Below, in pieces: positions 3,680-61,978 of a DNA stretch of 64,000 nt (positions within the stretch are counted from its first letter, which is position 1; every line of letters starts with the position of its first letter). Origin of the DNA: Nitrososphaerota archaeon (GTDB lineage Archaea > Thermoproteota > Nitrososphaeria > Nitrososphaerales > JACQRY01). Where the stretch lies: assembly GCA_016184315.1 (NCBI GenBank), contig JACPCU010000007.1:62001-126000 (forward strand), in the 5' to 3' direction. Made by a program: the position numbers and the translations under genes. Under the pieces are notes generated by a model, which saw only the letters and a program-made list of their open reading frames with translations, did no database searches and was not told the DNA's origin.

Positions 3680-4570
3680 TCAATCTGCTTTGCCTGATAA
3701 ACGACGGTAAAGCTTGATGGAAGAGTCCAGCGTTTCTCCTTCGTCAGACAAGTTGATCGAAGACTGGATGAGTTGAAGCACCAACGAGCCAATAGGTGAG
3801 GGGGCATGGGTAAATGACGCTTCCTCCAAAGCAAGGCTCAGATCCTTGTAGACAGTTCGACGAGCCTTCAAGTATGCACCGTTTTGAAGCATGGCTGAAA
3901 GAAGTCTTTCGAATGCCTTCGAGCTACCTGAGCTCTCTTTGGTGATCTCATAGAACCTTTCTAGGCTGAGCGTCGTCTGCGTAACCCAATTAGTTACCTC
4001 AATAGCGCCAATAGAGTGTATGGCAAGAAGAAAATTGTTGGCTAGCTTAGCCACTCTGGCATCGCCGACTTTGCCCGCATTAACTACTGTTTTGCCTAAT
4101 GCACTGAAGATAGGCATGCACCGCTCAACAGTTTCATCCTTCCCACCCACGATCACGATTAGCTCACCTTTCTCTGCAATGTCAGGAGTCCCACTTACAG
4201 GAGCATCAACCACCTCCGCCCCTCTACGCGTAAGACCATCAACCACTTTGAACAAAGTAGAGGTGCCAGTGGTGCTCATCTCCAGAAGAACGTGGCCAGG
4301 TCCGTATTGCTCGACTAGCCCTGATGGACCTAATGCTGCATCCTCCACCGCCACAGGCGTAGGAAGCATAGTGATTACGATTTGTGCATGTTTAGCCAAT
4401 TCCTTTGGAGATGGAGCACTAGTAGCGCCTGCAGAAACCATGACTTTGACAGCGTCAGGATTAATGTCGCAGACAGAGACTTTGAAGCCTTTCTTCAACA
4501 AATTCATTGCCATCGGTCTACCCATAGCGCCAACACCGATGAATCCCACGTTAAGATCGGTAGAGACCAA
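3680..4570 (-). CDS. 3-hydroxyisobutyrate/tartronate semialdehyde reductase-family dehydrogenase
   Basis: NAD(P)-dependent beta-hydroxyacid dehydrogenase, 296 residues, the usual length. The N-terminal Rossmann motif is GFIGVGAMGRPMAMNLLKKG. The substrate-binding signature (VDAPVSGTPDIAEKG) and the catalytic lysine region (KLANNFLLAIHSIGAIE) are both in place. These enzymes reversibly oxidise 3-hydroxyisobutyrate, L-threonine-like or glycerate-type hydroxyacids to semialdehydes; the exact substrate is not readable. The start is TTG at 4568-4570, just before the Rossmann strand. It is monocistronic as far as can be seen, convergent with the pilin gene. Confidence 0.85.
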   Translation of the reverse strand: MVSTDLNVGFIGVGAMGRPMAMNLLKKGFKVSVCDINPDAVKVMVSAGATSAPSPKELAKHAQIVITMLPTPVAVEDAALGPSGLVEQYGPGHVLLEMSTTGTSTLFKVVDGLTRRGAEVVDAPVSGTPDIAEKGELIVIVGGKDETVERCMPIFSALGKTVVNAGKVGDARVAKLANNFLLAIHSIGAIEVTNWVTQTTLSLERFYEITKESSGSSKAFERLLSAMLQNGAYLKARRTVYKDLSLALEEASFTHAPSPIGSLVLQLIQSSINLSDEGETLDSSIKLYRRLSGKAD

Positions 4571-4841
4571 TTTCGCGCTCTGTTGAAGAAGCCGTTCTTA
4601 ATTAGCCTGATGATCCCACGCGCGTCAGCTTGAAGAAGCCTAAACGAGAGAACCTATGGTGGTAAGAAAAGAGGAAGCAATGGGAAAGTTTCAAAACCGG
4701 ATCGAAGACGCAAACCCATCTACGGTGTCCTCTTGGCGTCATACTTGGGCAGAATCCAGTGGCAGTTTGTGCCATATACAACCCTATTGTGGATCGCGGG
4801 CATGAGACGATACAGAAATACATGCAAAGAAACTTGGGATG

Positions 4842-5243
4842 TTACAGCGCAGGTAGAGGTGACTCTACAGCTGGAAGAGGAATCGACAATATCCCGCCCA
4901 CCGTTATCGTCGTTTCTACTCTGACCTTGGCAGGTGAGCCGCTTCGAGGCATAGTAGCAGCGAGGTTAATGGTCTCGGTTCTACCTGCAGGGATTCTGAA
5001 TGAGTTTTCAGTGGTCTGAAGCACTGATCCTCCTCGGTCAAGAATAGAAATGTTCATTTTCCCAGAGAGATCCAAGAAACCTCTGTTGGGTACAGTCAAG
5101 GGTATGATTGCAGTTGTGCCCGATACTTGCGCCTGACCTACGCTCACATGTTGTAAACCAGTCAATAGAAGTCCTGCTTCCGCAACGACGACAACTGTAA
5201 TCAGGGAGACAATGACAACTGTGATTGCCTTGACTTTCCCCAT
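4842..5243 (-). CDS. Membrane-anchored beta-domain protein, unknown function
   Basis: I do not recognise a named family with certainty. The protein (133 residues from the ATG at 5243; an upstream start at 5261 is also possible) begins MGKVKAITVVIVSLITVVVVA, a lysine-flanked single membrane helix. This is followed by an extracellular region of alternating hydrophobic residues ending in a proline-rich tail. The pattern (conserved Asn-Arg turn, GKMNISILD, later KVRVETTITVGG) resembles LEA14/WHy-type immunoglobulin-like folds used by archaea at the cell surface, but that is inference. It lies downstream of the ZIP gene on the same strand with a gap of about 150 nt, so co-transcription is possible. 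Confidence 0.6.
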   Translation of the reverse strand: MGKVKAITVVIVSLITVVVVAEAGLLLTGLQHVSVGQAQVSGTTAIIPLTVPNRGFLDLSGKMNISILDRGGSVLQTTENSFRIPAGRTETINLAATMPRSGSPAKVRVETTITVGGILSIPLPAVESPLPAL

Positions 5244-5394
5244 TCCAGATGGAACCAGCATAGTCCGGGATAAAAGGATTGATTCAAGAGGTGCTGATAA
5301 ATTGTCGGGTTATACCTGTTCTTATCACTTATATGAGACACCTCCTTAACGACTATCAAACCCCGAAGAGTTATCAGAACCACTCAACAGGTTT

Positions 5395-6180
5395 CTACTC
5401 AAACTGGTGTATTACGCCTGCGAAATACATGTAGAGGAAGCCGACAAGTATCCAAACCGCATACCTCCTAACTCCATTCCTGTCAGAGGTGAATAGGGTT
5501 GTCATCCCGTAAACAGTGGCGCCGGCTGAAGACGCGAAGAAGAACGTCGAGGTGCCGCCTGGGAGCCCAAAGAGTCCCAGCAAGGTTCCCACTGCTACAG
5601 GAAGCCCAGCAACAAGGCTGACCGTAACAGACTGCGTGAGGCCTACCCTAACCGCATAAACCAGAACTCCTATCGACGCTCCCTCCGCAATCTTATGCAG
5701 CGTAAAGCTTAGTGCTTGCGGCAAGGAGAGAATAGTAAATCCCGTAGCGAAGTCGTAGCCGATCACAATCCCCTCGCCCATCCCGTGCAACCCGACTCCA
5801 AGCAAAGCCCATAGATACGCCAACCACAAGTTTCCGCCTCCATTCAGCGACTGATGAGCAAAGTAGAAGCCGAGCAACGCCACCGCAAAGAAAGATACGT
5901 TAAGCACATCTACAACGCCTCTTAGGGTTGAACCGCTGAGACCTGCTGTCTCCTTAGCCAAATCATAGAAGTTTGCTACCAAGACACCTACAACAAGCGC
6001 GGATAGAATGCGTCTCCTAGGCTGCTCCCAGCCTCTAACAGCACGCACCAATAATACGCCCAGCAGCACCGGAATAATCCCTGCTGAAAGCGAAAAAAGA
6101 CCGGCAGTAACTGGTTCTCGGAGGCTTATGCTTCCTTCAACTTGGAAGGAAAATGAGACAAATGAATAAGTCAGACTCAA
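5395..6180 (-). CDS. ZIP-family metal transporter
   Basis: Polytopic membrane protein, 261 residues and about eight hydrophobic segments. The two metal-site helices of ZIP carriers are clear: HGMGEGIVIG (His132, Glu136) in TM4 and HKIAEGASIG (His162, Glu166) in TM5, forming the transport site for Zn2+, Fe2+ or a related divalent ion entering the cytoplasm. The TTG start at 6178-6180 overlaps the TGA of the cupredoxin gene by 4 nt (TTGA), so the two are translationally coupled. Pairing with a copper-type cupredoxin suggests a metal-handling operon; which metal is carried is not shown. The ZIP assignment rests on these two motifs and the helix count. Confidence 0.8.
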   Translation of the reverse strand: MSLTYSFVSFSFQVEGSISLREPVTAGLFSLSAGIIPVLLGVLLVRAVRGWEQPRRRILSALVVGVLVANFYDLAKETAGLSGSTLRGVVDVLNVSFFAVALLGFYFAHQSLNGGGNLWLAYLWALLGVGLHGMGEGIVIGYDFATGFTILSLPQALSFTLHKIAEGASIGVLVYAVRVGLTQSVTVSLVAGLPVAVGTLLGLFGLPGGTSTFFFASSAGATVYGMTTLFTSDRNGVRRYAVWILVGFLYMYFAGVIHQFE

Positions 6181-6644
6181 CCTTCAACCACTAATGTGCC
6201 TTTGTGCAACGGGTGACCTGTTCCGCAGAAGACGTTGCAGAAAAACGTGTAGGTCCCTGTGGTAGCTGCCGCGAATCTTAATGTGACTTCCTGTTGGGGA
6301 GGAGTAACCTCGAAGACTCCGAACTCCTCTAATGCGAATCCGTGGATCTGGTTAGACTCGGTATTCCTAATCTTCAGGACAACCAAATCTCCTTTACGCA
6401 CTTTAATGACGGAGTCAGAGAACGCCTCGTCTTTAAGCTTGAACGATGCTTCGACGCCGGGATGCCCCTGCTCTACCTTGGGTTCGAACCGCCAGTTCCT
6501 TGTCGTAATCGAAATGAGTACGGTGTCAGGCTCTCCTGTTTGACGAGATCCAGTTTGGAGCAGGCTGCCTGCAAGCAGAACCGTAGCAAGTATGACGGAG
6601 GCGAGTAGAATCAAAACAATGTTGAGTCTCTTCAATTCAAACAC
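6177..6644 (-). CDS. Membrane-anchored CuA-like cupredoxin (CoxII-type domain)
   Basis: A 155-residue protein with an N-terminal membrane anchor (about residues 8-29) and one cupredoxin domain facing outside. Ligands typical of the binuclear CuA site can be traced: His101 (NQIHGF) and the loop C136-NVF-C140-GTG-H144-PL-H147. The usual CuA loop ends in Met and has Glu between the cysteines; here those positions are His147 and Val138. It could still bind one or two coppers but with altered chemistry. No cytochrome oxidase subunit I gene is nearby, so it is a stand-alone electron carrier or copper chaperone rather than an obvious oxidase subunit. The start is GTG at 6642-6644. Confidence 0.75.
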   Translation of the reverse strand: MFELKRLNIVLILLASVILATVLLAGSLLQTGSRQTGEPDTVLISITTRNWRFEPKVEQGHPGVEASFKLKDEAFSDSVIKVRKGDLVVLKIRNTESNQIHGFALEEFGVFEVTPPQQEVTLRFAAATTGTYTFFCNVFCGTGHPLHKGTLVVEG

Positions 6645-6694
6645 CTATCTTAATGGCCGTGAGTTCAGACATGCAGATGCTATTTACACATCAC

Positions 6695-6712
6695 TACCCA
6701 TAAATAAACCAA
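6695..6712. promoter_or_regulatory. Shared AT-rich element between divergent cupredoxin and ubiA genes
   Basis: The 109-nt divergent spacer holds CCATAAATAAACC, which reads as a TATA-like box on either strand (TTTATTTATG on minus). It lies 50-60 nt from both predicted starts, so it would leave short leaders on both sides. Which gene uses it is not resolved. Confidence 0.35.
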
Positions 6713-6753
6713 GGTCTGTCTAGCTACTTTCTGATCTTAGCAGATGAATCGAG

Positions 6754-7635
6754 TTGCTGCAGCAGCACCGCAGAGTGGAGAAGAGGCTCATAGTAGGACT
6801 TATCTTCGGTACTCTTAGGGTTCAAAGAACTTTTCCGACTGTCGTTGCGTCTGCAGCCTTCCTTTTCATGCTGGGCGAGAACCATGCGTGGCGAATAGTG
6901 GCCTTTTCTCTTAGCACATTTCTCTTCCATATCTCAGCAAGCGCGTTCAACGACCTCTCCGACATTAGGGCAGACATGTTTAACGCTCCTGAGAGACCAT
7001 TCGTTCAAGGGAAGATATCTAAGAAGGCTCTGGCAACTTTAGCATCTACTCTCTTCAGTTTGGGTGTGGCATTAGCTAGCATTGTTGACTTGTTTTACGG
7101 CTTTCTCTCAGCTACTCTCGGTCTTCTCTATGTTTTACTTTATAGTTTTTTCGTTCCGATGAAAAATAACCCTCTGGGCTCCTTTCTCTATTTGTCAGCG
7201 TCTGGCTTAGCGGTGCCATTTACGGGAGCCACCATAATAGGTAGATCCATAGATGTGGATACCTTGGTGTCAATCATGGTATTGACCCTGTTAGGTGCAT
7301 GCGCAACCATATCTGCAGTCAAGGATATTGATGGAGACGCGGCGGTGGGAAAGAATACATTTGCAGTGACACTGGGATTCAGAACGGCCAGGATGCTAGT
7401 ATCTGGACTAATACTTCTACCTGTTACTCTCTACCCGTTTGTGCCTGTGCTCTTCAACATCAGCTCGTCTTATCTGCAGGCATCTCTTCTCCTCGGCGTC
7501 TCCCGGTTTATTCTTGCATGGCGAATAAGCCTATGCGCGCTACCTCATGCGCTAGGAAGATACAGCCCTGCCTACCGTGTTCTCATAGCTGGAGATGCAG
7601 CATCTATTGCTCTGACTGCAACACTGGGAACCTAG
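6754..7635 (+). CDS. UbiA-family prenyltransferase
   Basis: Integral membrane prenyltransferase, 293 residues with eight or nine helices. The first Mg-diphosphate motif NDLSDIRAD (Asn66, Asp67, Asp70, Asp74) is followed by the usual N-A-P-E-R-P sequence, and the second aspartate motif is DIDGDAAVGKNTFAVTLG. Such enzymes attach an isoprenoid chain to an acceptor: glyceryl phosphate ether (DGGGP synthase in archaeal lipids), an aromatic quinone precursor, or chlorin/heme. The acceptor cannot be told here. The start is TTG at 6754 (a GTG at 6775 also fits). Its stop codon overlaps the stop of the convergent AOR gene by 4 nt. Confidence 0.85.
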   Translation: MLQQHRRVEKRLIVGLIFGTLRVQRTFPTVVASAAFLFMLGENHAWRIVAFSLSTFLFHISASAFNDLSDIRADMFNAPERPFVQGKISKKALATLASTLFSLGVALASIVDLFYGFLSATLGLLYVLLYSFFVPMKNNPLGSFLYLSASGLAVPFTGATIIGRSIDVDTLVSIMVLTLLGACATISAVKDIDGDAAVGKNTFAVTLGFRTARMLVSGLILLPVTLYPFVPVLFNISSSYLQASLLLGVSRFILAWRISLCALPHALGRYSPAYRVLIAGDAASIALTATLGT

Positions 7636-9578
7636 TTGTTTAAAGCAGGTTTCTGAGCCACTCCGTTTTCCGGCCAAAGATCTTTGACGACGAAATCTAG
7701 CTGCAGTTGGCTGAGCTTCTCTTTGGTAGGCTTGCCAGAGGTAGGATCCCACCCTCGTACAGTATAGTATTGAGGTAACATCTCGTCTAGTTTGACCACT
7801 GCTCCTGACTTGTTCTTCTCCTTGGTCAGCCTCTCAGGCAACGTGTCTTCTTCACGAGTGCAGCCGTGCCTCATGTTGAAAGCCTTCTTCAGGTTGAAGA
7901 CTCTTTCGCCAACATTCAGCGCTCCAGCGAGATCCATTGAGATGCCCGTGACGGCGCTGTATGCCTTGACAAGATTCGACTCGCCACCATATGCACCATA
8001 TTTCATGGCGAAGACGCACCAGCCCGATGTGTTAATGAATCCTCTCCAATTCTCCTCGACAATAGCTAGGTGACCCTTGTTTTCGGTGCTGAACCTGTCC
8101 ACGATCTGAGGGTAGGGCAACTGAGATTTCTTCCATCCACCCAACTCTAAGCCCAGTGTGAACCCCTCTGTGTGTCTGGCGCCAGTTACTGTGCACGCGT
8201 AGTGGACACCCATACTTTGGGCAGCCCTAGGATCGTGGACAGACATCTCTAATCCCTTGACCTGAATGGAGAGCCTCTCTGCGCCATTGCCTATGATCAT
8301 GCCTGCTCTCCTAGATCCCTCCGCCAAGATGTTTCCGAATCCTTCGCGGTGAGCGATCTTGTCAAGCATCGCCATGGCCGCCATATCGTTTCCAAACTTG
8401 AGCTCTATGCCATCCGTGTCTTCCTTAGTTATCATTCCTCGCTCGTAGCACTCCATCGCCAAGGACAGAGTACCACCTAGAGATATGGTGTCGATTCCAT
8501 ACATGTTACACAGATCATTGAGCTTCGCTACTGCATAGATGTTGTCTATGCCGCAGTTGGAGCCTATTGAGCCAAGAGTTTCATACTCAGGGCCTTCAAC
8601 GCCCTTCTCGGTGGCGAAGGGTCCTGATTCCACGTATGCAACGCGTCTGCATGCGACAGGACACACGTAACATGTCCTTGTGCCTATCATTATCAGCTTC
8701 TGGCCTTCCCGCCCTATCTTTTCAACACCGGGGTCTCCCGGTCCACCGAAGTCGATGCGCGACCAGTTGTACGCGGGAACATCGCCGAGCTGCCAAGATG
8801 AGTCGAAGCTTCCAGAGGTGCCTCCTTTATGGAAGTCTTGGAGGGCTTGATCAGTCTTGCCTCTCTGAGTCACCTCAGAGACGACCTTCTTGAGAGTGTC
8901 CATGTCGGCTACGGGCACCTTGGCGTGACCTCTTACGGCTACTGCCTTCAGGTTCATGAAGCCCATTACTGCGCCTACACCGCATCTGGCAGCTATTCTC
9001 TCAGCGTTGTCGTTGGCTACTCCTGCGATTCTAACCATGTTTTCTCCTGCAGGCCCTATGGCTGCGACCTTCACGTTCTTGTCGCTGAGATCGTTTCTGA
9101 GGGCGTGGTCAGTTTCCCGAGCGTCCTTGCCCCAATAAGATTTGGCGTCTTTTAGCTCGGCATTGCCGTCTATGATGCGTAAATATACTGGTTTTGGGGC
9201 GCGGCCTTGGAAAACTATCATGTCGTAGCCGGAGAATTTGAGTTCAGCTCCCCAGAAGCCTCCTGAACTGGCGTCGCCAAAATATCCTGTTAGAGGTGAT
9301 TTGGTTACTATGCTGTGCCTACCAGCTGTTGTAGTCATGGTGCCTGTGACTGGTCCTGTGGAGAAGATGAGCCGGTTGTTGGGGTCAAAGGGTTCTACCC
9401 ATGGAGGTACTTCGTCATAGAGGATCTTGCCTGCGATGCCCTGATTTCCTATGTATGTTTTGACTAGTGAAGGGTCAAGAGGCACCTTCAGAATCTTGTT
9501 TCGCGAGAGGTCAACTCTTAGGGTCCAGCCCATGTAGCCACCGGGAAGATCGGAGGTCAAATCGGATCTAAACTTCAT
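7632..9578 (-). CDS. Aldehyde ferredoxin oxidoreductase family (tungsten enzyme)
   Basis: AOR-family protein, 648 residues, close to full length for the family. The N-terminal tungstopterin domain contains the family landmark TGPVTGTMTTTAGRHSIVTK. The [4Fe-4S] cysteines are in CYVCPVACRR, with a distal Cys in HGCTREEDTLPERL near the C-terminus. Members oxidise aldehydes to acids with ferredoxin as acceptor in the cytoplasm, using W-bis-pyranopterin; the substrate is not readable. The start at 9578 gives a 15-residue extension before MGWTLRVDLSRNK; the internal ATG at 9533 corresponds to the start in many relatives and is a serious alternative. It sits among other molybdenum/tungsten and aldehyde-handling genes. 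Confidence 0.9.
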   Translation of the reverse strand: MKFRSDLTSDLPGGYMGWTLRVDLSRNKILKVPLDPSLVKTYIGNQGIAGKILYDEVPPWVEPFDPNNRLIFSTGPVTGTMTTTAGRHSIVTKSPLTGYFGDASSGGFWGAELKFSGYDMIVFQGRAPKPVYLRIIDGNAELKDAKSYWGKDARETDHALRNDLSDKNVKVAAIGPAGENMVRIAGVANDNAERIAARCGVGAVMGFMNLKAVAVRGHAKVPVADMDTLKKVVSEVTQRGKTDQALQDFHKGGTSGSFDSSWQLGDVPAYNWSRIDFGGPGDPGVEKIGREGQKLIMIGTRTCYVCPVACRRVAYVESGPFATEKGVEGPEYETLGSIGSNCGIDNIYAVAKLNDLCNMYGIDTISLGGTLSLAMECYERGMITKEDTDGIELKFGNDMAAMAMLDKIAHREGFGNILAEGSRRAGMIIGNGAERLSIQVKGLEMSVHDPRAAQSMGVHYACTVTGARHTEGFTLGLELGGWKKSQLPYPQIVDRFSTENKGHLAIVEENWRGFINTSGWCVFAMKYGAYGGESNLVKAYSAVTGISMDLAGALNVGERVFNLKKAFNMRHGCTREEDTLPERLTKEKNKSGAVVKLDEMLPQYYTVRGWDPTSGKPTKEKLSQLQLDFVVKDLWPENGVAQKPALNN

Positions 9579-55753: not shown

Positions 55754-56152
55754 CTAGATTTCTCTTCTTCTGATTTCTTTGAGCCTGTCGAAGTGTTTGT
55801 CAGCAGACACCATGGAGTCGGCGTCTTCAGACATAGCTGAGGCTGCATGAATCGCGTCTCTGGGATCTAGCCGATATTTTTCCATCAATTCCAATGCCGA
55901 CACCAACAAGCCTCCATTCACGTCCAGCAAAGTCAAGCCAGGCATGTTAAGGAATGTTTTTCCAGCAAGGATAGCATCCTCAAAGCCCCTATATTTCTTG
56001 ACTACCCAAACAATTTCATCAAACGTCAATGCCGACGACGCAGCGTTTATTTTGCCTTGCTGCACCTTTCTGAGAAGGATTCTCGCTCGATCGCCGAGGG
56101 CGTCTTGGTTTATGGCTGCGTAGATGAAGACATTGGCGTCAAGATAGAGCAT
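55754..56152 (-). CDS. vapC: PIN-domain toxin VapC
   Basis: Mg-dependent ribonuclease toxin, 132 residues from ATG 56152. The four acidic PIN positions can be seen: Asp in LYLDANVFIYA, Glu in TFDEIVWV, Asp in LDPRDAIHAASA and Asp in VSADKHFD. Such toxins cut tRNA or rRNA unless bound by the antitoxin. It begins 1 nt after the stop of the AbrB-type antitoxin gene, a typical two-gene operon. A longer start at 56185 would overlap the antitoxin gene and is less likely. Confidence 0.9.
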   Translation of the reverse strand: MLYLDANVFIYAAINQDALGDRARILLRKVQQGKINAASSALTFDEIVWVVKKYRGFEDAILAGKTFLNMPGLTLLDVNGGLLVSALELMEKYRLDPRDAIHAASAMSEDADSMVSADKHFDRLKEIRRREI

Positions 56153-56153
56153 T

Positions 56154-56396
56154 CTACTGGACTCTTCCCTCAAGCTCTTCTTCATAGAGATGGACTGGGG
56201 GTGTTGCAGATCGGCCTTTCTTAGCTATTTCTTCGAAAACGGCGACAGCGTCGAGCTGAGGTTTCTGAATGATCACTTTGTCGTCTTCGAGTCTGAAGGT
56301 TACCTTCGAGCCTGGGTGGATCTTGAGCACTTTCCTAAGCGCTTTTGGGATTACAACCTGGCCTTTGGGGCCGACCTTCATTTCTTCTTCAAGCAT
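56154..56396 (-). CDS. vapB: AbrB/MazE-type antitoxin VapB
   Basis: DNA-binding antitoxin, 75-80 residues. The swapped-hairpin AbrB domain is clear (MKVGPKGQVVIPKALRKVL, PGSKVTFRLEDDKVII), and the C-terminal tail (VFEEIAKKGRSATPPV and onward) would occupy the toxin active site. ATG 56381 (MKVGPKGQ) or 56396 are both possible starts. Its dimer probably binds the palindrome just upstream, repressing its own operon. Confidence 0.9.
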   Translation of the reverse strand: MLEEEMKVGPKGQVVIPKALRKVLKIHPGSKVTFRLEDDKVIIQKPQLDAVAVFEEIAKKGRSATPPVHLYEEELEGRVQ

Positions 56397-58625: not shown

Positions 58626-59042
58626 CTAGTCGCGTACTCCAATCCCCCCTACTCGGCGGTGTTTACTCTCGGCGTATGTCGCTGACGAAAGAGTCAAAAG
58701 ACCAGCCACCATGAAACTCGCAAACTCGTATTCAGATAAGTTGAGCCTTGTGGGCAAGGTGATATCTAGCATGAAATAGAAAAGAACTTTGACCAACCAC
58801 ATAGAGACGCTTGGAACTGCGAAGACAAGCCTTGAAATCTGAAGAAAAACTCTCACACTCTCGAATTTGGGTTTATTCATTAGAGAAGTGATTACAGCAA
58901 TAAGCATCATAGAAAAGCCACCACCTTGTGCAGCCAACGCAACCGAGACGGGTACTCTTCCCACATTATAGAGCGCGAAGACTAGGATGCCAATAGCCAC
59001 TAGGAAAAGCAAGGCTTCCACCAAGGTGTTCTTCGGCACCAT
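58626..59042 (-). CDS. Small multi-pass membrane protein downstream of the RHS C-terminus (candidate immunity protein)
   Basis: A 138-residue protein from ATG 59042 with about four hydrophobic helices (LVEALLFLVAIGILVFALY, the VALAAQGGGFSMMLIAVI segment, one around SRLVFAVPSVSMWLVKVLF, and a last one in FMVAGLLTLSSAT) and a basic tail. A longer frame reaches 59144 but overlaps the upstream gene. It starts 1 nt after the glycine-zipper module. No family is recognised. In polymorphic-toxin loci the gene right after the toxin tip usually encodes immunity, and small membrane proteins protect against pore-forming tips; the role here is inference from position. Confidence 0.55.
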   Translation of the reverse strand: MVPKNTLVEALLFLVAIGILVFALYNVGRVPVSVALAAQGGGFSMMLIAVITSLMNKPKFESVRVFLQISRLVFAVPSVSMWLVKVLFYFMLDITLPTRLNLSEYEFASFMVAGLLTLSSATYAESKHRRVGGIGVRD

Positions 59043-59043
59043 C

Positions 59044-59526
59044 TTACCGTCGCCCCTGTCGTTGTTCACATTTCTGTCTCTCTGTAATAGAGAGGTAATA
59101 TCCCCAAAGAGCCCCGGCGATCCCGCCAATGAAAGCTCCTGCACCAGCTCCCGGTGGGCCAGCCAAGCGAAAACCTATGCCTCCACCAGCCAGAATCCCT
59201 AACCAAGCGGTACCCTCGATGATTTCCCGATCCAAATCACACGGCGGCTGTCCGACTGGAGGTAGCGTTGACGATGCTTGACTGCCTCCACCAGCAGGTG
59301 TACTTGTAACTATCATCTTACCAATGCTATCATCAGCCGCGTTGTTTGGTGATTGCCCTGCACTTGGAGCGATGATGTTTGCTGTCTGTTGTATATCTGA
59401 TATGGTTGGCTGCTGTGGGTTTGGTGGAGGAGTCGGCTCAGGCGGCGGTGTGGGCAGGATAGGTGTAGGTGGGACTGGCGCGGGTGGCGGGGGTATTGGT
59501 GCTGTGGGAGGTGCTGATGGAGGGGG
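59044..59526 (-). CDS. Shifted-frame C-terminal module of the RHS protein (glycine-zipper membrane segment)
   Basis: In the frame ending at 59044 the sequence is open without a stop from the six-C tract (59522-59527, C on the minus strand) downward. It reads PPSAPPTAPIPPPPAPVP, a proline-rich linker that continues the RHS proline-rich tail, then TISDIQQTANIIAPSAG. After it comes a 90-residue part that could also start at ATG 59316. That part holds two Cys and a glycine-zipper membrane segment (GTAWLGILAGGGIGFRLAG, then GAGAGAFIGGIAGALWGYY). Removing one C would fuse it to the RHS gene, for a protein of about 750 residues. Such zippers occur in pore-forming or membrane-anchoring tips. Confidence 0.6.
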   Translation of the reverse strand, partial: PPPSAPPTAPIPPPPAPVPPTPILPTPPPEPTPPPNPQQPTISDIQQTANIIAPSAGQSPNNAADDSIGKMIVTSTPAGGGSQASSTLPPVGQPPCDLDREIIEGTAWLGILAGGGIGFRLAGPPGAGAGAFIGGIAGALWGYYLSITERQKCEQRQGRR

Positions 59527-61306
59527 GCTCTGGCGGTGCTACAGGGGGCTCGGGAGGAGGACCGGTACTGACCGGTGGATATGAAGGACGTATGTTATAC
59601 AGCTCGTCAGCATCACTCGGATCAGGAGTAAATACAGGCACATACTCAGTCTCATTCTCCAATTCAGCCAATAGACCCGTAGGGTCCGTGAACTTCAACG
59701 GATTATCGTTGGCGTAAACATACCTGTTGAGTGTTGAAGGTTCAGCGCAAGAGCACACCGGATCTTGCGTGGTGAATCTGCCTATCTCCGGGTCATAGTA
59801 ACTAGCTCCGAAGTAGTATAGTTTGGTGGGTGAGTCTTCCCATTTGCCGGTGTATTTGATCTTCTCTGTGCTATTTGCATTATGTTGTGGTCCGAAGGGC
59901 TTGTAGTTGGAAGCGAATAACTGGAGCTTAGATGCGCTAGTCGTCAGCCTCGTTGAGCCCAATGAGTCCTGATGGTAATACGTCAGCGAACCATTATTCT
60001 TAGCAATCAGCAAACTATTCGCGTAGAGGAATTTAGATTCTCCTCCACTCGTAACATTCTTCTGGTAGATGATGTTTAAACCGCTGAACAAGATGATCAG
60101 AGTAGAACCCTCGATGACCTTCACCCTCCTATTTTCGCCATCATAGAAGTACTGTCCCTGAGTAACACCGTTCTTAACCGCTTTAGTCATCATATTATTG
60201 TAGTTGTAAGTATAGTTCCAAGTATCCCCACCCTCAATCTTGCTGAACGTGTTCCCGTTGTTAGCATAGGTAAAGGTGAGAGAGCTGTTTGTAGAGGTGA
60301 GCCTGTTATATGTTCCGTATGTGTAGGCTACAGTTGTGTTCCCCTCCCTCTTCGTCAACCTGTTTCCCACCTGATCATATGTGTAGGTTATCGTTCCCCA
60401 CGGCCCCGTGGAAGAGGTCAACCTGTCCAACCCGTCGTAACCGTAGGATTCGGTCGCGCCAATACTCGTAATGTTCTTAACGTTCCCGTTGCTGGCGTAA
60501 GTGTAGTTCAGGTCTAAGCGTCTAACCTCTCCGTCTTTGACAACTATTCTTGTTGCTCTGCTCCTGGAATCATAGCTGTAGGTTGTTTGAAGCCCGTTGC
60601 CATAGCTTATCGTCTTAACCTTACCGTCTATCGTATAGGTGAATGATGCAAGTGTGCTGTTGAGGCTCTTAACCCTGTCCAACCCATCGTACTCATATGT
60701 CAACGGCTTGCTATCAGGATAGACAAGTCTTGTCAGACGACTCTCAGCATCATAGCTGTATGACGTAACATAGGTTGAGCCGTCAACGGTCTTAGCCTCA
60801 CTGAGAACCCTGTTCAAAGGATCATAGAAGTCGGTTGTAGAAGATACGAGATCGTTCATCGATACTCTGTTACCGTTCTTGTCGAAGCTGAAGGTTGCCG
60901 TTGTCGAATTGGGGTAGGTTATCTTCCTTATTCTGCCCTGTTCGTCGTAGCTCGTCTTAAGGATCTGCCCCTTGGCGTCGGTTGCATTCACTAGGTTGCC
61001 GATCTGATCATATTTCTTGGTTTCATTCTTGTTATCGGGGTAAGTTGTCTTGTTGTTCCGGTTTAGATCATCGTAGTAGAATCTTGTCAACTGGTTCTTA
61101 GCGTCTTTCACCGTAAGAATGTTTCCAGCCTTATCATAGGTCTGATCAGTCTGATAATACGTGGTTGAGTTAACATACTCCCTCGTCCAGATCAACCGGT
61201 CCCTCCAATCGTAGCCGTACACATTCTTCTTCCCATCCTCATTCAGAGTAGGTCTAGTGGTGTTCACCCATTTTTGATATGAGCCTCCTCGTGCCTTCTT
61301 TAGCAT
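59438..61306 (-). CDS. RHS/YD-repeat protein, N-terminally truncated, frameshifted near the C-terminus
   Basis: A 622-residue YD-repeat protein. Many copies of the G-x3-x-x-Y-x-YD-x-x-(N/D)R motif run from about residue 25 to 440, forming the RHS beta-shell. The canonical core follows: LGSTRLTTSASKLQLFASNY, KLYYFGASYYDPEIGRFTTQ and RYVYANDNPLKFTDPTGLL, where RHS proteins self-cleave. After the core comes a proline-rich tail, and the frame ends at 59438 after a six-C tract at 59522-59527. There is no signal peptide and no N-terminal plug domain. The ATG at 61306 comes two codons after an in-frame TAG and lies inside the upstream ribbon-helix-helix gene. It is probably a displaced 3' part of a larger RHS gene. 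Confidence 0.85.
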   Translation of the reverse strand: MLKKARGGSYQKWVNTTRPTLNEDGKKNVYGYDWRDRLIWTREYVNSTTYYQTDQTYDKAGNILTVKDAKNQLTRFYYDDLNRNNKTTYPDNKNETKKYDQIGNLVNATDAKGQILKTSYDEQGRIRKITYPNSTTATFSFDKNGNRVSMNDLVSSTTDFYDPLNRVLSEAKTVDGSTYVTSYSYDAESRLTRLVYPDSKPLTYEYDGLDRVKSLNSTLASFTYTIDGKVKTISYGNGLQTTYSYDSRSRATRIVVKDGEVRRLDLNYTYASNGNVKNITSIGATESYGYDGLDRLTSSTGPWGTITYTYDQVGNRLTKREGNTTVAYTYGTYNRLTSTNSSLTFTYANNGNTFSKIEGGDTWNYTYNYNNMMTKAVKNGVTQGQYFYDGENRRVKVIEGSTLIILFSGLNIIYQKNVTSGGESKFLYANSLLIAKNNGSLTYYHQDSLGSTRLTTSASKLQLFASNYKPFGPQHNANSTEKIKYTGKWEDSPTKLYYFGASYYDPEIGRFTTQDPVCSCAEPSTLNRYVYANDNPLKFTDPTGLLAELENETEYVPVFTPDPSDADELYNIRPSYPPVSTGPPPEPPVAPPEPPSISTSHSTNTPATRASPTYTYPAHTAA

Positions 61307-61523
61307 CCTCTATCTCTCTTTCAACATCCTTCCTGCTCTTGGTCTGTCGTTGCAGTCTTGAAGTCATCTCTTCAAGTGTTTTGACCCTCTCCTGACTGTA
61401 TAACAACTGCTTCACCGCGAACCTGATGAACTCGCTCTTCGTAGTGTATTCTCCGGCCTTGACCAGGGTCTCTATCCTCTTCAGGTCCTTCTCAGGTAGG
61501 TTCAGCAACATTTTCGTCCCCAT
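61254..61523 (-). CDS. Ribbon-helix-helix antitoxin-like regulator
   Basis: An 89-residue CopG/RHH-type protein from ATG 61523. The strand KMLLNLPEKDLKRIETLVKA and helices around TTKSEFIRFAVKQLL match the fold, and the charged C-terminal helix (LEEMTSRLQRQTKSRKDVER) would bind a toxin. A frame reaches 61736 but that N-terminal part is the antisense-like end of the PIN gene region. A GGTGAG just before the ATG fits a ribosome binding site. It overlaps the 5' part of the RHS gene by 53 nt in another frame. It is the likely partner of the PIN toxin encoded upstream. Confidence 0.82.
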   Translation of the reverse strand: MGTKMLLNLPEKDLKRIETLVKAGEYTTKSEFIRFAVKQLLYSQERVKTLEEMTSRLQRQTKSRKDVEREIEDAKEGTRRLISKMGEHH

Positions 61524-61543: not shown

Positions 61544-61566
61544 AAATATATGTTTTACATATATTT
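61544..61566 (-). promoter_or_regulatory. 23-bp inverted repeat overlapping the promoter of the RHH-RHS genes
   Basis: Arms AAATATATGT (61544-61553) and ACATATATTT (61557-61566) are exact reverse complements around a TTT centre. The repeat lies between the PIN toxin stop and the RHH start, 21-43 nt before the latter, and itself looks like a TATA element. RHH antitoxins bind such short palindromes, so this is a probable autoregulatory operator that would also control the RHS gene. Confidence 0.65.
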
Positions 61567-61978
61567 ATGCCTTCACCAGTTCTCTGGTTCTCCAGACCCT
61601 GAACCTGCCCTTGACAGTGTCGAAGTCCGCGTCGCTCGACCAGATCCCGTCGTGGTCTTCCATAGTTAGAGCGAGAGCTACCAGCGGTATGTCCGACTTG
61701 TCTCTGGAACCTATCAACTCGTAAGCCTCCTCCCACTTATCCTTGATGAAGTCGTAACTTACTGCCAATACTGGCATCGACCTGATCAACGTCAACGCTT
61801 CAACCCTGCTCAGCCCTCTCTTACCGGTGAGAAGCCTATAGATTTCTGCGATGGTGAACTCGGTTGTGATCAATATGTAGTCCCCAGAGAGGAGCACCTT
61901 GTTCTCCAAACCTTTGTACACCAGACCAGAGTAGAGGACGGTCGTATCTATCAGCAGGACAAGAGGCTTTTCATTCAT
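61565..61978 (-). CDS. PIN-domain ribonuclease toxin (VapC-like)
   Basis: A 137-residue PIN protein. Acidic residues fit the family: Asp in LLIDTTVLYSGLV, Glu in TEFTIAEIYRLL, Asp in SRDKSDIPLVALAL and the C-terminal SSDADFDTVKG. It would cleave RNA and is paired with the ribbon-helix-helix gene downstream, so the order is toxin first, antitoxin second. Its stop codon overlaps one arm of the inverted repeat at 61544-61566. Confidence 0.85.
   Translation of the reverse strand: MNEKPLVLLIDTTVLYSGLVYKGLENKVLLSGDYILITTEFTIAEIYRLLTGKRGLSRVEALTLIRSMPVLAVSYDFIKDKWEEAYELIGSRDKSDIPLVALALTMEDHDGIWSSDADFDTVKGRFRVWRTRELVKA

Follow-up and report, generated by a model that had tools for sequence, protein, structure and literature searches.

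A probable orphan RHS-tip cassette, with core and tip in different frames, in an archaeal draft genome

The locus and its junction with a vapBC-like pair

The window, which is the whole 64,000 nucleotide stretch of DNA that was analysed, is part of an archaeal draft genome of 2.0 Mb in 35 contigs, 92% complete and carrying archaeal L3 and L4. On its minus strand is an RHS open reading frame (ORF) that reaches a proline-rich linker before its stop codon, followed by a second open frame and a small membrane ORF, and preceded by a vapBC-like pair (Table 1). Both the repeats and the RHS-associated core are present in the RHS ORF, which places it among the RHS / YD-repeat proteins. Its core terminates in ...NPLKFTDPTGL, after which the proline-rich linker begins. 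In bacterial RHS proteins the core ends in an aspartyl-protease motif, DPXG-X18/19-DPXG (PMC10684867). Here the second element is present as DPTG, while the first is DPVC, the spacing is longer, and only the Asp residues are kept. The single-sequence structure model of the RHS ORF has a mean pLDDT of 34 and was set aside. Rfam, tRNA, PHROGs, and PADLOC scans returned nothing informative.

Table 1. Features of the RHS locus and its neighbours, in positions of the window.
Feature	Position	Strand	Basis
vapC-like PIN-domain ORF	61565..61978	-	PIN_2 E 8e-11, above cut-off
vapB-like ribbon-helix-helix ORF; 3' end overlaps start of RHS ORF	61254..61523	-	RHH_8 and RHH_1, above cut-off
5'-truncated RHS ORF, 622 aa (RHS repeats, RHS core, start of linker)	59438..61306	-	PF05593 E 1.5e-31; TIGR03696 E 1.8e-21, residues 468-545
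DPTG end of RHS core, predicted C-terminal processing site	59675..59686	-	sequence
C6 tract, change of coding frame	59522..59527	-	frame analysis; run length expected from composition
Second open frame, 164 codons (remaining linker and tip)	59044..59538	-	codon log-odds, shuffles
Glycine-zipper hairpin of tip	59092..59208	-	PF13488 E 2.4e-4, below cut-off; low-confidence two-helix model
138-aa membrane ORF, candidate immunity protein	58626..59042	-	3 hydrophobic segments by Kyte-Doolittle; about 2 nt past tip stop

Residues 13/14-544 of the RHS ORF are colinear, at about 46% identity, with residues 1270-1805, 1183-1711, and 1647-2177 of three full-length RHS genes found in the same archaeal order (L059, L061, and L063, respectively). 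In six relatives the alignment begins at residues 13-17 of the window ORF, and 820-1,650 upstream residues are absent. Among solved structures, residues 98-331 match residues 462-704 of Tse5, a chain of 1,121 residues, and the N-terminal part that would complete the shell is missing. The original prediction had taken the RHS ORF for a whole shell and, joined to the second frame, for a complete toxin of about 750 residues. Neither is supported, given that homology to the full-length genes starts only at residue 13-17 and that the missing 5' part of the gene encodes roughly half of the shell along with any export signal. Judging from the missing residues, a single-frame product would be expected to lack a recognisable signal peptide and to leave the shell open.

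The start of the homology, at about nt 61270, falls within the last codons of the vapB-like gene, with the PIN-domain gene upstream. The simplest reading of this sequence arrangement would be that a rearrangement brought the 3' half of an RHS gene up against a vapBC operon. Matches to vapB relatives are limited to residues 7-53. In a synteny comparison with a genome of the same genus (G001), its cysS was found next to a contig end and the opposite flank gave no match. A second apparent toxin-antitoxin pair, recognised by eye as an 80-aa AbrB-like and a 143-aa PIN-like ORF, is present at 55754-56396 on the minus strand, some 5 kb from the vapBC pair that adjoins the RHS fragment.

RHS copies and their membrane partners in the genome and the order

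Further RHS fragments are present in the same genome, in an array with different tips and partners on contig C16 (L011) and as remnants on contigs C27, C20, and C30, some with stop codons. The C16 array (G000:C16:22000-37000, positions 4198-9485) has three different 3' ends. In its second fragment the tip is out of frame with the core and the 233-aa partner gene behind the tip is intact (L011 6010-6570, 6500-7009, 7010-7711), with no homopolymer evident at the join, while the third fragment has an inserted domain, LamG-like by eye, between its RHS repeats. Related membrane ORFs are found on two contigs, each just 5' of another RHS fragment (L011 5595-6035 and L012 4973-5437, the latter on the minus strand). 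Their dN/dS is 0.58, above the value for the RHS core, which against its nearest paralogue is 0.12 (dS 0.89); a dN/dS against the third C16 fragment was discarded as misaligned. The longest exact match between the window RHS copy and another copy found is 78 bp, which makes it doubtful that the window copy would still serve as a recombination donor.

Across the order, an RHS core was found in 24 of the 300 genomes sampled, the longest open frame having 2,647 codons, with arrays of orphan RHS cassettes in three genomes (G043, G108, and G147). A scan of GTDB contigs with the RHS ORF of the window found two distant loci only. In at least 10 RHS genes of the order a single frame encodes the core, a Ser/Thr/Pro linker, and a tip that is mostly hydrophobic (two each in L054 and L055, and those in L056, L057, L058, L059, L064, and L068). 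Homologues of this fused architecture had been put forward in the original prediction as a check; they exist, and the opposite outcome, that the two frames are always separate genes, was not seen. Since these relatives read through, the frame break in the window is not conserved. The array in G043 (L055, G043:C1:454000-472500) is dense, lies on both strands of one large contig, and carries several different tips, most of which are then followed by small membrane ORFs.

Membrane ORFs lie within -30 to +60 nt behind 14 of 20 RHS genes, compared with 29 of the 226 remaining genes in the same loci, in a count where the loci are partly non-independent and the ORFs are mechanical calls. Behind hydrophobic tips the proportion is 8/11 (Fisher p 2e-5). 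It is 6/9 behind the other tips, and therefore the link is with RHS tips generally. Some partner families are common to different genera, with E 5e-12 between L054 and L056, the tips of which are mutually homologous (E 2e-7), and E 2e-4 to 1e-8 among L055, L064, and L068. None of the seven partner ORFs tested passed a Pfam cut-off. The partner in the window has no informative family match, and the search for its relatives turned up nothing but chance-like hits in broken reading frames. The analogy with Rhs and CDI systems (PMC3967940, PMC11630599) would make the small membrane proteins behind RHS tips candidate immunity proteins. The related small membrane proteins encoded 3' of RHS genes in L055 (3995-4924), L064 (2340-3296), and L068 (5321-6562) share a similar soluble tail, with a motif resembling LGTxLYSWL and no Pfam match, and are a candidate new immunity family.

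The frame change, the tip, and alternative explanations

The positions given in the original prediction for the end of the RHS frame, the C6 tract, and the takeover by a second frame are correct. 5' of the tract the RHS frame reads ...PPPEPPVAPPEPP. 3' of it the other frame continues as PPPSAPPTAPIPPPPAPVPPTP..., with the variable base at codon position 3, and the RHS frame becomes a series of NNC-type codons and then stops. By codon log-odds the RHS frame is preferred upstream of the tract, and well downstream of it the other frame, with near parity within the proline-rich overlap. The second frame, open from 59538 to 59044, was predicted at about 160 codons; a frame remains open across its actual length in only 0.6% of dinucleotide shuffles. 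Its first ATG is at 59316, and ATG, GTG, and TTG are absent from the 74 codons before this, which therefore make sense only if they continue the RHS gene. That the two frames were once one gene, as had been proposed, is borne out by this absence of start codons and by the fused homologues, and both frames are almost certainly descendants of a single ancestral gene.

The two frames were searched separately. At the end of the second frame is the tip, a glycine-rich hairpin, GILAGGGIGFRLAGPPGAGAGAFIGGIAGALWGYYL. The predicted glycine-zipper module matches PF13488 below threshold, at 21.4 bits against a cut-off of 25, and the single-sequence model of the tip is a two-helix hairpin of low confidence (mean pLDDT 58.5). 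Among 100 near relatives and 300 genomes of the order, the search for relatives of the tip found only weak glycine-zipper matches in short frames, and a scan of IMG/VR found none. A profile of other archaeal tips scored the window tip no higher than shuffled controls, and homology to those tips is not claimed.

The presence of a homopolymer at the join would suggest phase variation or programmed slippage, by which the C tract lets some cells or ribosomes make the tip-bearing protein, and the second such pair of core and tip in the genome shows a shift in the same direction. However, the C6 run is itself unremarkable, because a run of this type is present in 82% of shuffles of the C-rich linker; the window has 11 runs of C or G of at least six. 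The second break has no homopolymer, every fused relative is in one frame, and the gene concerned is 5'-truncated and has no export signal. This part of the original prediction is thus unsupported, and switching of this kind is very unlikely here. Still slightly less probable is that the two frames are genes in their own right, one a short RHS ORF and the other a small independent glycine-zipper protein of 90 aa opened by the ATG at 59316. This start codon is available, but the 74 codons 5' of it are open, lack alternative starts, and continue the proline-rich linker, and the relatives have linker and tip in the RHS frame.

If a homopolymer in this metagenome-assembled genome had been wrongly sequenced or assembled, the fragment and tip would truly be in one frame and form an intact orphan cassette, as is the case in relatives. 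The coincidence of the frame switch with a homopolymer and the core dN/dS of 0.12 are compatible with this. Against it, conserved window genes align with their family profiles from end to end (xdhA 1-754/758, cysS 24-464/466, aroA, aroC, aspartate kinase, and thiolase), and other C6/G6 runs sit inside long open frames such as those of cysS and xdhA, so indels are not a general problem of the assembly. The second core/tip break, where the join has no homopolymer, also speaks against an error, which is accordingly unlikely, if less so than either of the readings above. The low dN/dS would mean that function was lost recently or, with lower probability, that the break is an error, and it is also compatible with a gene still undergoing translation. 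The recent inactivating mutation, which was offered in the original prediction alongside sequencing error, is favoured, and the frame change would appear to be both biological and recent.

Origin of the locus and its relation to known systems

The locus is probably an orphan, or displaced, RHS-tip/immunity cassette that was recently disarmed and has kept its immunity gene. It is a fragment with some of the core, far smaller than full-length rhs genes and without an export signal, and a small, closely linked gene lies directly downstream of the tip. The intact tip frame expected of such a cassette is lacking, with the tip in the other frame past the C6 tract. Its ancestor would have been a full-length secreted RHS polymorphic-toxin gene, of which the window keeps the 3' part. 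In this ancestor the RHS shell would have held the hydrophobic hairpin tip, to be released at the core's DPTG end and to enter the target-cell membrane, in the manner described for Tse5 (PMC10684867), probably depolarising it. The downstream membrane protein would most likely have given the producer immunity to the tip. The rearrangement that joined the vapBC operon would have removed the 5' half of the gene, and a later change of one base in the proline-rich linker would have severed the tip from the core. The window copy is incapable of the ancestral toxin action.

Orphan Rhs-tip cassettes are already known in enterobacteria. The Rhs-CT/RhsI cassettes of Salmonella Typhimurium LT2 (PMC3967940) are alike in having an RHS fragment with some core, a distinct C-terminal tip, no export signal, and a small gene directly behind. 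The window differs from these in its archaeal host, its broken tip frame, its membrane-type tip and partner, and its vapBC junction, and no full-length main RHS gene was recovered in its draft genome. Tse5, the Rhs pore-forming toxin of Pseudomonas aeruginosa (PMC10684867), is a homologue of the shell and has a membrane-active C-terminal fragment past the DPXG end of the core. In contrast to Tse5, the window gene is without the N-terminal plug and the first half of the shell, has DPVC as its first DPXG element, and has a long proline-rich linker; the tip is likened to Tse5-CT by analogy, and homology to it is not claimed. The CDI ionophore toxins (PMC11630599) are a proposed analogue, with C-terminal domains that dissipate the membrane potential and, for each, a cognate membrane immunity protein. 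Theirs, however, are CdiA proteins with a five-helix ionophore bundle, whereas the window has an RHS protein with a predicted two-helix hairpin. The RHS polymorphic toxins of Methanosarcina acetivorans (PMC3482391) are also archaeal, with toxin-module cassettes and immunity proteins, but belong to a different archaeal lineage.

As a displaced tip that has lost head and frame, the locus is what polymorphic-toxin turnover ordinarily leaves behind. What makes it valuable is that it points to the archaeal RHS arrays, with their membrane tips and unnamed partners, which are the more interesting lead. Polymorphic toxins were found to be generally absent from most archaeal lineages in a survey (PMC3482391) and those of archaea are described as rare, yet RHS cores are present in the order at the frequency given above, some of them arrayed. 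Tips that look membrane-active, with partners below Pfam cut-offs, are candidates for toxin-immunity pairs in archaeal or archaea-neighbour conflict. It may be, tentatively, that the order runs a membrane-depolarising RHS toxin system of full-length secreted genes and orphan cassette arrays, with tips of which many are variable hydrophobic hairpins behind a Ser/Thr/Pro linker, and with small membrane proteins that neutralise them, of which the window would be a disarmed cassette keeping its immunity gene. A 4,150 bp sequence including a truncated RHS core shows 100% identity in two genomes (L066, G153:C18, and L067, G071:C84) that are listed under different species, which may reflect either recent transfer or shared contamination.
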